Source: Nocardioides jiangxiensis
Lineage (GTDB): Bacteria > Actinomycetota > Actinomycetes > Propionibacteriales > Nocardioidaceae
Direction: 5' to 3'
DNA length: 64,000 nucleotides
NCBI RefSeq assembly: GCF_030580915.1
Contig: NZ_JAUQTA010000002.1
Span: 248,001-312,000, forward strand
Part shown: positions 43,581 to 48,314 of the stretch, piece after piece
How positions within the stretch are numbered: the stretch's first letter is position 1
How the letters are laid out: each line of letters opens with the position of its first letter
The notes under the pieces: generated by a model
Database searches by the model: none
What the model was told of the DNA's origin: nothing
What the model saw: the letters and a program-made list of their open reading frames with translations, nothing else
Position numbers and translations under genes: made by a program

Positions 43581-44554
43581 TGGACATCGACCTGAGCATC
43601 CTGCGGATGCTGGAGCGCGAGAAGGAGATCTCCTTCGACGTCCTCGTCGAGGCGATCGAGCAGGCGCTCCTGCAGGCGTACCACAAGACCCCCGGCGCCC
43701 AGCAGCGCGCGCGGGTCGTCGTCGACCGCAAGACCGGCCACGTCAACGTGCTGGTCCGCGAGCAGGAGGAGGACGGCACCTTCTCCGAGGAGTACGACGA
43801 CACCCCCGACGGCTTCGGTCGCATCGCTGCCGGCACCGCCCGTCAGATCATGTTCCAGCGCCTCCGCGACGCCCAGGACGACATCACCTTCGGTGAGTTC
43901 TCGGGCAAGGAGGGCGACATCATCTCCGGCGTCATCCAGCAGGGGCGCAACCCCGACGACGTCATGGTCGACCTGGGCAAGCTCGAGGCGATCATCCCGC
44001 TCGGCGAGCGCGTCCCCGGCGAGAACTACGAGCACGGCACCCGCATCAAGGCGCTCGTCGTGTCGGTGCGCAAGGGCATGCGCGGCCCGCAGATCACCCT
44101 GTCGCGCACGCACCCCAACCTGGTGAAGAAGCTCTTCGCGCTGGAGGTCCCGGAGATCGCCGACGGCACCGTCGAGATCGCGGCGATCGCGCGCGAGGCC
44201 GGTCACCGCACCAAGATCGCGGTGAAGTCGACCGTCCCCGGCGTCAACGCCAAGGGCTCCTGCATCGGCCCCATGGGCAGCCGGGTGCGCAACATCATGA
44301 GCGAGCTGCACGGCGAGAAGATCGACATCGTCGACTGGTCCGACGACCCCGCGGAGCTGGTCGCCCACGCGCTCTCGCCGGCACGGGTCTCCTCGGTCGA
44401 GATCGTCGACGCGGCAGCCCGCGCCGCGCGCGTGATCGTCCCGGACTTCCAGCTGTCGCTCGCGATCGGCAAGGAGGGCCAGAACGCCCGTCTCGCCGCC
44501 CGCCTGACCGGCTGGCGCATCGACATCCGCTCGGACGAGGCCGCCCAGGCCTGA
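43580..44554 (+). CDS. nusA: Transcription termination/antitermination protein NusA
   Basis: This 324-residue protein has the NusA N-terminal domain ([19 protein letters not shown]), an S1 domain (~110-180, [11 protein letters not shown]), and two KH domains ([18 protein letters not shown], then [15 protein letters not shown] [16 protein letters not shown]). The acidic C-terminal repeats of proteobacterial NusA are absent, as is usual in actinobacteria. Followed by a double terminator. Confidence 0.97.
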
Positions 44555-44560
44555 CGGACA

Positions 44561-44617
44561 CCGACAAGTGGTGGGTTCCTCGTCACCAGGTGACAGGGAA
44601 CCCACCGCTTGTGTCGG
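44561..44617 (+). terminator. Large hairpin after nusA
   Basis: CCGACAAGTGGTGGGTTCC pairs with GGAACCCACCGCTTGTGTCGG with small bulges, and a small TCACC/GGTGA hairpin caps it. Confidence 0.75.
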
Positions 44618-44636
44618 GCGGAGTCGCCCGAGCCTC

Positions 44637-44679
44637 CAACGGAGACTTCTCGTCACCTGCTGACGACGAGTCTCCGTTG
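44637..44679. terminator. Second hairpin between convergent nusA and L12-like genes
   Basis: CAACGGAGACT (44637-44647) pairs exactly with AGTCTCCGTTG (44669-44679). It lies just past the stop of the minus-strand gene and can serve both directions. Confidence 0.75.
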
Positions 44680-44696
44680 TCATCTCCGCGCATGGT

Positions 44697-44900
44697 TCAG
44701 TCCGCCATCGGCCGCACGACGGCCGTCGCTCCTGCGCCACGCAGCCTGGCGGCGATCAGTTCTGCCGCATCTTGGCTCCTGCCGCTCACGAGCGGGAAGT
44801 GTGGTTCGGCCGTCGCGTCCTTCGCCTCGCTGAGGGTCATGCCGGTGGCCTCGCGCAGTGTCTTGATCACGGATATCCATCGGTCACCGAGCACGGTCAC
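44697..44900 (-). CDS. Stand-alone ribosomal L7/L12 C-terminal-domain protein
   Basis: This 67-residue protein is almost exactly one bL12 C-terminal domain: DRWISVIKTLREATGMTLSE then AKDATAEPHFPLVSG and AAELIAARLRGAGATAVV. The N-terminal dimer domain and hinge of true bL12 are missing. GTG at 44900 is chosen because its GTGA overlaps the TGA of a 30-codon frame (ATG at 44989) and an ACGAGG site precedes it. A longer GTG start at 44948 (83 residues) is possible. Function is unknown. Confidence 0.6.
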   Translation of the reverse strand: MTVLGDRWISVIKTLREATGMTLSEAKDATAEPHFPLVSGRSQDAAELIAARLRGAGATAVVRPMAD

Positions 44901-44989
44901 GACGACCTCGTGACGACCGGGCTCCGCCAGCCCGCCTCGATCCGCCACGCCGGCGCGGCCACCTGGAGCGCGGGGCCGGGGATTCGCAT
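44897..44989 (-). CDS. Possible 30-codon leader frame before the L12-like gene
   Basis: An ATG at 44989 opens MRIPGPALQVAAPAWRIEAG and ends at TGA 44899-44897, which overlaps the GTG of the L12-like gene. No ribosome site or -10 box is clear upstream. It may be a coupled leader peptide or chance. Confidence 0.3.
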   Translation of the reverse strand: MRIPGPALQVAAPAWRIEAGWRSPVVTRSS

Positions 44990-45053
44990 GCGCTGACCAC
45001 AGGCGTTGCCGGGGGAGCGGTACGCCGGTTCGCTCCGTCACACGCCGACCCGG

Positions 45054-45059
45054 TAGAGT
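45054..45059 (+). promoter_or_regulatory. Near-leaderless -10 box (ylxR)
   Basis: TAGAGT ends nine bases before the ylxR GTG at 45069, a slightly longer gap than in the other leaderless genes. Confidence 0.5.
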
Positions 45060-45068
45060 TGCTCCTCG

Positions 45069-45374
45069 GTGGCTCGCGAACTGAATTCCCCTGCACGCAC
45101 GGCAGCAGTGCCGGTGCGCACGTGCATCGGATGCCGCGAGCGGGCTGCCCGTCACGAGCTCCTGCGGATCGTCGCAGGGACCGGTGAGGACGGCCGCCCG
45201 GCCGTCGTACCGGATCCCTCGAAGTCCGCGGCCGGTCGTGGGGCGCATCTGCACCCGACGATCGCGTGCTACGACCTCGCGGTCCGGCGGCGAGCCTTCG
45301 CCCGAGCCCTTCGGCTCGAGCAGGGGCTGGGCGCTGAGCCGGTCCGGTCCTGGCTCGAGGCACACACGTCATGA
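45069..45374 (+). CDS. ylxR: YlxR family RNA-binding/nucleoid-associated protein
   Basis: This 101-residue basic protein has the YlxR signature VRTCIGCRERAARHELLRIV and GRGAHLHPTIACYDLAVRRRAFARAL split over residues ~55-80. YlxR lies between nusA and infB in many Gram-positives and binds RNA or DNA. Its TGA overlaps an ATG that starts a chain of mini-frames leading towards infB. Confidence 0.93.
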   Translation: MARELNSPARTAAVPVRTCIGCRERAARHELLRIVAGTGEDGRPAVVPDPSKSAAGRGAHLHPTIACYDLAVRRRAFARALRLEQGLGAEPVRSWLEAHTS

Positions 45375-45448
45375 CCGACTACAGGAACTGGAGCATCCGC
45401 TCATGAGCACTCGATGAGTACTTCGCGATGAGCATGCACACCCACTGA
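45371..45448 (+). other. Chain of four tiny reading frames joined by ATGA overlaps
   Basis: After ylxR the frames are: 45371-45406 (MTDYRNWSIRS), 45403-45417 (MSTR), 45414-45431 (MSTSR) and 45428-45448 (MSMHTH). Each ATG overlaps the previous TGA as ATGA, at 45371, 45403, 45414 and 45428. The infB GTG lies 55 bases after the last stop with its own AGAAGGAG site. ATGAG(C/T)A is repeated three times (45403, 45414, 45428). The structure is seen directly; translation is inferred. Confidence 0.7.
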
Positions 45449-45503
45449 CGGTTCGACCCCACAACGCATTCCGGGGCGGGCCGAGAAGGAGTAACACAAC
45501 CCC

Positions 45504-48314
45504 GTGGCCAAGCCCCGCGTACACGAGATCGCCAAGGAATTCGGCGTCGAGAGCAAGTTCGTTCTCGAGAAGCTGAAGGAGATGGGCGAGTTCGTCAAGT
45601 CCGCGTCCTCGACGGTGGAGCCCCCCGTCGCGATGCGTTTCAAGAAGCAGTTCGGCGACGAGCTGCGTGCTGCCGGTGGCGCTGCCGCCGAGGCGCCCGC
45701 CGCCGCTGCCCCGGCTGCCGCCCCCAAGGCGCCTGCCGCCAAGCCCGGCCCGAAGCCGGCTCCCAAGCCGGCCCCGGCTCCCGAGGCCCCGGCCCCGTCG
45801 GCCCCCGCCGCTGCTGCTCCCGCCGCTGCTGCGCCGGCCGCCCCGGCGCCCGCCGCGCCGAAGCCGGCTCCCGCCGCTCCGGCGCCGAAGGCTCCGACCC
45901 CTGGCCCCAAGCCGGCTGCGGCAGCCCCCGGCCCCCGTCCGGGCGGCGCTCGCCCCGGCGCCCCGCGTCCGGGCAACAACCCGTTCGCGTCTTCGCAGGG
46001 CATGGGCAAGCGCCCGACCGAGCGTCCGGCCCCGGCTGACCGTGGTCCGGCCCAGACCGGCGGCGGCGACAACCGTCCGCCGCGTCCGCCGGCCGCCGCC
46101 GGCGGCGCTGTGCCGCGTCCGGGCATGCCGCGCCCCAACCCGGCGATGATGCCCAAGTCCCCCAACGCCTTCGGTGCCCGCCCCGGCGGTGGCCCGGGTC
46201 GCCCCGGCGCTCCCGGCCGTCCCGGCCCGGGTGGTCGTCCCGGTGCTCCGGGTCGTCCCGGCCCCGGCGGTGCCGGCGCCGGTCGTCCCGGTGGTGGCCC
46301 CGGTGGTCCCGGCGGCGCTCCCGGCGGCTTCGCCGGCCGCCCCGGCGGCGGCGGTGGTCGTCCCGGTGGTCCGGGTGGTCGTGGCCAGACCCAGGGTGCC
46401 TTCGGTCGCCCGGGTGGCCCGTCGCGTCGTGGTCGCAAGTCGAAGCGGGCGCGTCGCCAGGAGTTCGAGCAGATGCAGGCGCCCACCATCGGTGGCGTGC
46501 GCGTCCGCAAGGGCAACGGCGAGACCGTGCGTCTTGCCCGTGGTGCGTCGCTGACGGACTTCGCCGAGAAGATCGGTGTCGACCCCGCCTCGCTGGTGCA
46601 GATGCTCTTCTCGCTCGGCGAGATGGTGACCGCCACCCAGTCCGTGGGTGACGAGACCCTCGAGCTGCTCGGCGAGGAGCTGAACTACGTCGTCCAGGTC
46701 GTCTCCCCGGAGGACGAGGACCGCGAGCTCCTCGAGACGTTCGACCTCGAGTTCGGTGCCGACGAGGGTGACGAGTCCGACCTCGTCGTGCGCCCGCCGG
46801 TCGTCACCGTCATGGGTCACGTCGACCACGGTAAGACGAAGCTCCTCGACGCGCTGCGCAACGCCAACGTGGTCGACAAGGAGGCCGGTGGCATCACGCA
46901 GCACATCGGCGCCTACCAGGTCTACACCGAGGTCGACGGCAACGAGCGTGCCATCACCCTCATCGACACCCCCGGTCACGAGGCGTTCACCGCCATGCGT
47001 GCCCGTGGTGCCCAGGCCACCGACATCGCGATCCTCGTGGTCGCGGCCGACGACGGTGTCATGCCGCAGACGGTCGAGGCGCTCAACCACGCCAAGGCCG
47101 CCGGCGTCCCGATCGTGGTCGCGGTCAACAAGATCGACAAGCCGGAGGCCGACCCGGTCAAGGTCCGTGGCCAGCTCACCGAGTACGGCCTGGTCCCCGA
47201 GGAGTACGGCGGCGACGTCATGTTCGTCGACGTCTCGGCCAAGTCCGGCCTCAACCTCGAGGGTCTCCTCGAGGCGGTCGTCCTGACGGCTGACGCGTCG
47301 CTCGACCTGCGCGCCAACCCGAACCAGGACGCTCAGGGTCTGGTCGTCGAGGCGCACCTCGACCGCGGTCGCGGTCCGGTCGCCACGATCCTCGTCCAGC
47401 GAGGCACGCTCCGCGTCGGCGACTCGATCGTCGCCGGTCCGGCCCACGGTCGCGTCCGCGCCATGCTCGACGAGCACGGCGAGCCGATCGAGGAGGCGTA
47501 CCCGTCGCGTCCGGCCATGGTTCTCGGTCTCTCCGGCGTGCCGGGTGCGGGTCAGAACTTCCTCGTCGTCGAGGACGACCGGATGGCCCGCCAGATCGCC
47601 GAGAAGCGTGAGCACCGCGAGCGTGCGGCCATGCAGGCCCAGCGCCGCGTGCGTCGTACCCTCGAGGACTTCATGGCCTCCATGGAGAAGGGCGAGAGCC
47701 AGGAGCTCAACCTCATCCTCAAGGGCGACGTGTCCGGTTCCGTCGAGGCGCTCGAGGACTCGCTGTCCAAGATCGACGTCGGCGACGAGGTCTCGCTCCG
47801 GGTCATCGACCGCGGCGTCGGTGCCATCACCGAGACCAACGTCATGCTCGCTGCGGCCTCCGACGCGATCATCATCGGCTTCAACGTCCGCCCGCAGGGC
47901 AAGGCGACCGAGCTGGCCGACAAGGAAGGCGTGGAGATCCGCTACTACAGCGTCATCTACCAGGCCATCGAGGAGATCGAGGCGGCCCTCAAGGGCATGC
48001 TCAAGCCGATCTACGAGGAGCACACGCTGGGCCAGGCGGAGATCCGTGCGATCTTCCGCTCGTCCAAGATCGGCAACATCGCCGGTTGTATGGTCACCAG
48101 CGGCCTGCTCCGTCGCAACGCCAAGGTCCGCATCATCCGCGACGGCAACGTCATCGCGGACAACCTGGACCTGGCCGGCCTCAAGCGCGAGAAGGACGAC
48201 GCCGCCGAGGTCCGGGAAGGCTTCGAGTGCGGTCTGTCGCTCAAGAACTTCCAGGACATCAAGGAAGGCGACATCGTCGAGGCGTTCGAGATGCGCGAGA
48301 TCCCGCGCGGCTGA
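45504..48314 (+). CDS. infB: Translation initiation factor IF-2
   Basis: This 936-residue GTPase delivers initiator tRNA. Residues 1-~55 are the N-terminal helical domain ([20 protein letters not shown]). Residues ~57-310 are a low-complexity Pro/Ala then Pro/Gly/Arg region, long even for actinobacteria. The G domain has G1 GHVDHGKT at 438-445, [12 protein letters not shown] and [10 protein letters not shown]. Domains II, III and the tRNA-binding end follow ([19 protein letters not shown]). GTG start after AGAAGGAG. Confidence 0.97.

Follow-up and report, generated by a model that had tools for sequence, protein, structure and literature searches.

Linked tiny reading frames and a predicted two-way RNA fold ahead of infB in actinomycetes: a candidate re-initiation-fed translational attenuator

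The ylxR-infB interval

The window analysed here, a stretch of 64,000 nucleotides from Nocardioides jiangxiensis, corresponds to positions 248001-312000 of contig 2 in a genome of 3.0 Mb and carries ylxR and infB, the gene of initiation factor IF-2, both on the + strand (Table 1). Between nusA and ylxR, an antisense stretch (44697-44906, -) codes for a ribosomal L7/L12 C-terminal domain (PF00542, 45.5 bits), and the usual nusA-ylxR-infB order is thus interrupted in this genome. A consensus scan of positions 44500-45600 detected neither a transcription terminator (including a U-tract) nor a sigma-70-type promoter. A viral origin was considered and rejected: the sole viral match (L032) lies inside a phage gene and is due to chance.

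The interval between the two genes is occupied by very short reading frames followed by a spacer. According to the original prediction, frames of 11, 4, 5 and 6 codons start at the ATGs at 45371, 45403, 45414 and 45428 and are chained by ATGA, and the last tiny stop, ending at 45448, lies 55 nt ahead of the infB GTG at 45504, which has its own AAGGAG; this description is correct throughout. The four frames had also been regarded as one unit, and here the comparison disagrees: among 90 congeners, the frame at 45371 is ATGA-linked in 18, fused with MSTR in the same reading frame in 3 and absent from 69. The remaining three frames, numbered 1 to 3 in Table 1, form the relay discussed below.

Table 1. 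Features of the ylxR-infB interval in window coordinates; peptides are written without the stop codon, which the coordinates of the frames include (SD, Shine-Dalgarno sequence).
Feature	Coordinates	Strand	Remarks
ylxR	45069..45374	+	101 codons; upstream gene; Pfam PF04296, 70 bits
11-codon frame MTDYRNWSIRS	45371..45406	+	incidental lineage-specific feeder; conservation absent
19-nt block GGAACTGGAGCATCCGCTC	45384..45402	+	precedes tiny frame 1; profile of 90 congeners
Likely SD of tiny frame 1, GGAG	45390-45393	+	inside the 19-nt block
Tiny frame 1, MSTR	45403..45417	+	GCTCATGAGCACTCGATGA in congeners; 4-codon equivalents class-wide
Tiny frame 2, MSTSR	45414..45431	+	start overlaps frame 1 stop; without SD
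Tiny frame 3, MSMHTH	45428..45448	+	start overlaps frame 2 stop; without SD; stop adjoins segment 1
Segment 1, GGTTCGACCCC	45450..45460	+	predicted to pair with segment 2; partly under a ribosome at the last tiny stop
Segment 2, CGGGGCGGGCCG	45472..45483	+	alternative predicted partners: segment 1 or segment 3
infB SD, AAGGAG	45486-45491	+	read from sequence
Segment 3, infB start codon to codon 5	45505..45516	+	partner of segment 2 in the masked minimum fold
Pairing stretches of segment 3	TGGCC 45505-45509; GCCCC 45512-45516	+	
infB, IF-2	45504..48314	+	936 codons; GTG start; Pfam IF-2, IF2_N, GTP_EFTU; presumed controlled gene

Conservation of the linked frames

The genus set comprised 90 of 116 ylxR-bearing genomes (the best 30 and the next 60 by rank), and YlxR rather than the motif served as the anchor for the loci. 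All 90 congeners keep the tiny frames linked. In 83 of them the linkage is by ATGA, with at least three frames; the other seven have TAATG at the second junction, where MSTR and MSNS, each closed by a stop, are followed by an ATG that overlaps the stop as TAATG. An extra 14-nt unit, in phase, is present at two loci (L006 and L015). The columns of GCTCATGAGCACTCGATGA reach 0.99-1.0 in 90 of 90 congeners after anchoring on a motif that matches at all 90 and itself fixes most letters of frame 1. The ATGAG that opens frame 3 stands at 1.0 in the 90 congeners, and the intervening bases are variable. The refutation proposed with the original prediction, namely that the frames of relatives are broken at the neutral rate, was run, and linkage proved to be retained although the bases inside the frames vary. 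Because start-stop linkage persists while the frame bases change, linked translation, rather than peptide sequence, seems to be conserved, as had been suggested; in-phase insertion of 14-nt units and replacement of ATGA by TAATG point in the same direction.

At the level of the class, 356 of 394 genomes matched YlxR. The better-scoring places were listed, with weak-match families such as f27 lying outside, and 80 YlxR-anchored loci from 33 families were chosen by hand for family spread among the matches listed. Linkage was called by a script that accepted frames no longer than 18 codons, beginning with ATG or GTG and joined through ATGA, GTGA, TAATG or TGATG, with a limit of 200 nt before infB. 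At least three linked tiny frames lie within 200 nt of infB at 77 of the 80 class loci (33 families), which gives 167 of 170 loci when both sets are pooled (90 of 90 in the genus, 77 of 80 in the class), in comparison with 107 of 8,500 dinucleotide shuffles. Linked tiny frames before infB are more frequent than chance. When the limit is widened to 330 nt, 79 of the 80 class loci have at least three linked frames, a count that is too generous for L117, at which the counted chain lies upstream of the real leader with its two clear linked frames. The frame 1 boundaries picked by the script include some upstream in-frame starts.

The motif ATGAGYACNCGATGAG occurs in 84 of 394 class genomes, and its backwards control in one. 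The relay is also found without this motif: family f20 (Streptomyces-like) has MSTR, MSTR and MSTPMN, f18 has MSAR, MSTQR and MSTSS, f37 has METK, VNGSK and MRPVRD, and f5 has MSTP, VKSR and MTMRHS. The idea that the ATGAG(C/T)A repeat is itself the functional element is not supported, as it is unrepeated in f5 and f37, which retain linkage. At five of seven loci of family f21, the usual ATG reads ACG, and frame 1 begins at a GTG that follows AAGGAG and shares the reading frame of the usual stop; the frame 1 start thus appears to have shifted in this family with the relay retained. Twenty more class loci, picked by pattern and left out of the counts, were read by eye, and 17 of them lie before infB and three (L042, L047 and L050) do not.

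In a named collection, at least 118 relay-like stretches were identified, with examples from Streptomyces, Nocardioides, Actinomadura and Ornithinimicrobium; of the 118 examined, 113 are directly before infB, and five (L227, L234, L247, L256 and L322) are not. Three of the five (L234 at about 4151, +; L247:6306-6331, -; L227:6-31, +) are tandem ATGAGCACCCG-like 11-nt repeats at or before the apparent starts of genes other than infB, and each yields linked frames of the MSTR-stop type. Duplication of a repeat at an ATGA junction could be the origin of relays. The stretch in a Paludibacteraceae MAG (L256:2759-2784, -) consists of runs of short repeats like ATGAGCACCCG and ATGAACGG, apparently a simple expansion unconnected with infB, and infB was not found behind L322.

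No homologous leader was detected at 20 loci outside the class, of which 17 were read by script and three (L195, L203 and L204) by eye; at these three the script had missed or misplaced infB, and the reading by eye gave zero linked tiny frames. One locus outside the class, L197, carries four linked frames within AT-rich sequence; the second of these resembles the tail of ylxR, and we regard the locus as unrelated. Since the leader is near-universal in the class loci and absent from the 20 loci outside, it looks like an invention of the actinomycete class that has since been retained, a picture that deeper sampling could alter.

Frame geometry and ribosome-binding sites

All 165 parsed loci show a start/stop overlap between the tiny frames, linkage being a requirement of the parsing itself. 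At the first junction, ATGA is found at 145 loci, GTGA at 17, and TAATG or TGATG at three; at the second, ATGA is found at 158 and TAATG at seven. Starts 2 and 3 are 14 nt apart at 150 of 163 loci, 11 nt at nine and 17 nt at two. The last tiny stop lies at a median of 46 nt from infB, which is not joined to any upstream frame. A Shine-Dalgarno (SD) core of at least 4 nt precedes frame 1 at 130 of 165 loci (88 of 90 within the genus) and infB at all 165, as compared with six of 165 for frame 2 and one for frame 3. This pattern is what would be expected if de novo initiation takes place only at frame 1 and at infB, with frames 2 and 3 being reached by re-initiation.

Ahead of frame 1, a block like GGAAGCRGGTCGAGA recurs across many families and is longer than an SD requires; no pairing partner of the block upstream of frame 1 was found. 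We rejected a helix, suggested by eye, that would join the upstream block to the last bases of frame 1 (CGGGT..ACCCG, TCGAG..CTCGA); in the swap scan, the upstream block with frames 1 and 2 gave a mean z of -0.27 and 0.46.

Predicted alternative folds of the spacer before infB

The comparison also brought to light a feature absent from the original prediction: the RNA that follows the last tiny stop is predicted to fold in two ways ahead of infB. By eye, the strand ahead of the infB SD (segment 2) can pair either with the segment adjoining the stop (segment 1) or with the first infB codons (segment 3). In many families these two partners are alike, with GGTCCG beside the stop and AAG GTC CGG in infB. 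When the spacer was folded alone (163 loci), the first paired nucleotide was located at a median of 1 nt, and at the 95th percentile about 9 nt, past the last stop; in these models, the first paired base of the spacer would fall inside the footprint of a terminating ribosome.

Both pairings are marked by co-variation. In a swap test, partners were exchanged between loci (59 of 164 usable loci, 32 families, 5,000 permutations). Segments 1 and 2 gave -18.94 kcal/mol with their own partners and -15.12 kcal/mol when swapped (0 of 5,000 permutations), and segments 2 and 3 gave -18.78 and -15.34 kcal/mol, respectively (also 0 of 5,000). The control, infB codons 9-15, gave no signal (2,512 of 5,000 permutations). 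The segment 1 and spacer windows of the first swap test shared 6 nt, and a non-overlapping repeat gave an equal result. When all 36 pairs of nine leader windows were scanned, with one locus per family, 31 families and four draws, 1:2 and 2:3 alone stood out (mean z -6.6 and -5.6, respectively), followed by -2.4 for two overlapping windows and -2.3 for segment 2 with the SD-start window. In particular, segment 2 co-varies with infB codons 2-8. In the window, infB codon 4 is CCC as opposed to ACC in most congeners compared, and segment 2 carries GGGGC as opposed to GGGTCT in many; because the two differ together, the 2:3 pairing is preserved. These results point to two mutually exclusive predicted pairings of segment 2, of which 2:3 would restrict the infB start.

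In a sublineage of the genus, CCTTCTGG opposes CCAGAAGGAG at the infB SD (e.g., L063), and in family f37 an anti-SD strand likewise forms the closing helix directly. As both use a direct anti-SD strand, they support the logic of the switch independently of segment 3. In the sublineage (L021, L029, L030, L063, L086, L089, L093, L097, L100 and L111), CCTTCTGG lies approx. 10 nt upstream of the SD CCAGAAGGAG, and their pairing competes with another hairpin. Family f12 (L126 and L127) retains the relay, with the last stop just 20-21 nt before infB and no room for the spacer fold; control in this family must use another route, e.g., direct occlusion of the infB SD.

Folding models with a ribosome on the relay

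A ribosome at the last tiny stop was represented by a mask that held the bases from -15 to +9 around this stop unpaired, and the cost of opening infB from -15 to +19 was taken as the readout. Under the mask, the opening cost rose by more than 0.5 kcal/mol at 152 of 166 loci, drawn from the 170 pooled loci, with a median of +4.1; the infB start became easier to open at five of the 166, and the effect was absent or reversed at 14. Shuffled spacers (984) under the same mask gave a median of -0.04 kcal/mol, with 35% up and 38% down. The readout was widened to the 30S footprint (-15..+19) after a narrower window (-15..+6), used first, had been seen to give a mixed result (59 up, 18 down, and 92 of 169 within 0.5); the SD and the start lie in a loop. 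Given this mixed result, the mask effect depends on including the downstream part (half) of the 30S footprint.

The models are sensitive to where the ribosome stands. Among 68 representatives, a footprint extending 4 nt past the stop gave a median of -0.35 (23 up, 29 down), and those extending 6, 9 and 12 nt gave +2.2, +3.4 (58 up, 3 down) and +3.4, respectively. Placing the ribosome on the frame 3 start gave a median of -0.86, with 11 up and 40 down (68 representatives). As the mask at the last stop raises the cost and the mask at the frame 3 start tends in the opposite direction, it is the relay-completing ribosome that closes infB in the folds. When infB codons were taken from another family, the median effect decreased from 3.4 to 1.6 (p 1.6e-5); however, the rise persisted in 63% of 272 swapped infB starts, and part of the mask effect is therefore independent of segment 3.

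At the locus of the window (L002), the ensemble opening cost increases from 11.2 to 15.7 kcal/mol under the mask, as predicted. Its free-state minimum fold lacks the 1:2 hairpin, segment 2 being already paired with infB, and the 2:3 pairing is likewise part of the free minimum fold at L011, L022 and L147, among others. Thermodynamic folds take no account of kinetics or of ribosomes on infB.

A possible translational attenuator of infB

The linked frames, the SD pattern, both pairings with their co-variation, and the mask effect were established by comparison or computation. On balance, they incline us to the view that the tract is a re-initiation-fed translational attenuator of infB, probably one of IF-2 negative feedback; that the frames are translated, which sign the effect has in cells and which signal is sensed are what we infer. 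A ribosome would initiate de novo at tiny frame 1; arrival at the end of frame 3 would require it to terminate and restart twice at start-stop overlaps that lack an SD. Having completed the relay, it would cover segment 1 while at the last stop, and segment 2, thereby freed, would pair with the infB start region, so that infB translation would drop; in some lineages, an anti-SD strand would pair directly with the infB SD. If re-initiation failed, segment 2 would stay bound to segment 1 as a hairpin, which would leave the ribosome site of infB more open. With two successive SD-less restarts, occupancy of the last stop may depend more than linearly on IF-2, and more IF-2 would then lead to less infB translation in a simple negative feedback. 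The earlier suggestion that the tract senses initiation capacity before IF-2 synthesis has thus gained a concrete candidate mechanism.

IF-2, or its balance with IF-3, is the most likely quantity for the relay to report, given that in E. coli IF-2 promotes re-initiation and an excess of IF-3 counteracts it. According to the accessible part of an E. coli study (PMC2268962), the gain in re-initiation upon IF2 overexpression was approx. 2.5-fold when the initiator tRNA was a mutant and slight when it was normal, and IF3 overexpression cut re-initiation almost threefold, less so in the presence of an SD; its authors state that re-initiation requires more IF2 than de novo initiation. The argument for IF-2 dependence rests on this one study, in which the IF2 effect is small with the normal initiator tRNA, and such overexpression data are described as difficult to interpret in the available text of a review (PMC12548453). 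Termination-re-initiation at AUGA has been reported, in the excerpt at hand, to operate in mycobacteria (PMC11260477).

It is possible, if unlikely, that the same switch responds to another signal, such as ribosome recycling (RRF/EF-G), RF2-dependent UGA termination, IF-3, or free 30S or initiator tRNA. Such a signal would fit with the stop of frame 1, which is UGA at 163 of 165 loci, and with the two terminations and two restarts that precede the last stop; moreover, in E. coli with the normal initiator tRNA, IF3 affects re-initiation more than IF2 (PMC2268962, accessible part). The nature of the controlled gene, infB, favours IF-2 feedback instead.

Translation of the leader might also act positively, by retaining ribosomes, guarding the RNA from Rho or RNases, and melting structure, and in this way aid infB. 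Overlapping start-stop pairs do mostly couple positively, and expression of M. tuberculosis PPE2 needs its uORF (PMC11260477, in the part available). However, a single ORF would be enough for this purpose, and the last stop is separated from infB by the median distance given above, with infB having its own SD at 165 of 165 loci. In the folding models, the mask at the last stop closes the infB start rather than opening it, and positive coupling would leave the co-variation of segments 2 and 3 without a role. We therefore consider this explanation improbable.

A leader with peptide- or codon-specific stalling that senses an amino acid or an antibiotic, of the erm, trp or whiB7 sort, would account for short frames preceding an alternative fold, for CGA directly ahead of the frame 1 stop (133 of 163 loci) and perhaps for the WhiB7 ChIP peak upstream of infB in M. 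abscessus (PMC10727445, as excerpted), which is a matter of transcription, but it is very improbable, since frame 3, which adjoins the fold, occurs in 113 different sequences among 163 loci, with no conserved peptide or control codons, the listed peptides sharing the start residue alone. Equally remote is a structured RNA bound by a protein or small-molecule regulator, with the frames retained only as sequence: frame 1 and the GCTC ahead of it are almost invariant at the DNA level within the genus and a GGAAGYGGGT-like block upstream of frame 1 recurs, but Rfam gave zero matches up to E 1 for window positions 44500-45700, linkage outlasts unit insertion, TAATG replacement and sequence change, and the swap scan finds the upstream block unpaired with frames 1 and 2.

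Relation to known systems

In the erm/cat translational and trp attenuators, a ribosome on a short leader frame chooses between two exclusive RNA pairings. As modelled, the infB leader would be like such ribosome-mediated attenuators (erm/cat, trp, whiB7), the translational type of which hides the ribosome site by one pairing. It differs from them in that it has no conserved stall peptide or control codon, would involve two start-stop re-initiations, and precedes a gene for an initiation factor. In eukaryotes, the GCN4/ATF4 upstream ORFs are serial short frames in which re-initiation gauges the availability of an initiation factor. Serial short frames and a re-initiation gauge are shared with the proposed infB relay, which, in contrast, has no scanning or delayed re-acquisition, uses overlapping stop-starts, is read out by an RNA fold, and presumably has the factor itself as its output. 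We tentatively regard it as a real possibility that the three linked tiny frames form a relay in which the odds of SD-less re-initiation are multiplied, and by which IF-2 availability is gauged and passed back to IF-2 synthesis via a ribosome-triggered RNA switch; this would make the leader a class-wide bacterial counterpart of GCN4-type control.

Autoregulation of E. coli infC (IF3) via its start codon and of prfB (RF2) via a frameshift exemplifies factors that sense their own activity on their own mRNA. As proposed for the infB leader, a translation factor senses itself through a translation event; however, the event at infB would be re-initiation, the factor is another one, and neither an AUU start nor a frameshift is involved. 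ATGA/NTGA re-initiation gene pairs resemble the infB relay in that the start overlaps the stop and internal starts are mostly without SD (PMC12548453, PMC10666635, PMC11260477; available portions). Whereas those pairs consist of protein genes that are coupled positively, the infB relay joins frames of a few codons, the last of which is not joined to infB. The rimP-leader of rimP-nusA-infB operons is a cis element of the same operon but, in the accessible part of its description, is a 5' transcription terminator before rimP and does not lie between ylxR and infB (PMC2965389). Among the literature matches listed, from a search that mostly left subscription papers outside, the accessible texts contain no description of tiny linked frames or of a two-way fold before infB. 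A review of translational coupling treats ribosome-delivering short ORFs and the role of IF2, and its available text includes no such leader (PMC12548453).

Implications

Present at nearly every class locus examined (33 families), the infB leader predicts that re-initiation serves as a regulatory signal. To our knowledge, the question of how bacteria set the level of IF-2 is largely open beyond E. coli. If the proposed mechanism is true, the leader would be the first bacterial gauge known to us that measures re-initiation itself rather than codon stalling. As a natural three-step substrate, it would also make the debate on 30S-versus-70S re-initiation testable (PMC12548453, as excerpted). Finally, functional four-codon frames, which are far under annotation cut-offs, may be findable by comparison of linkage rather than of peptide sequence.
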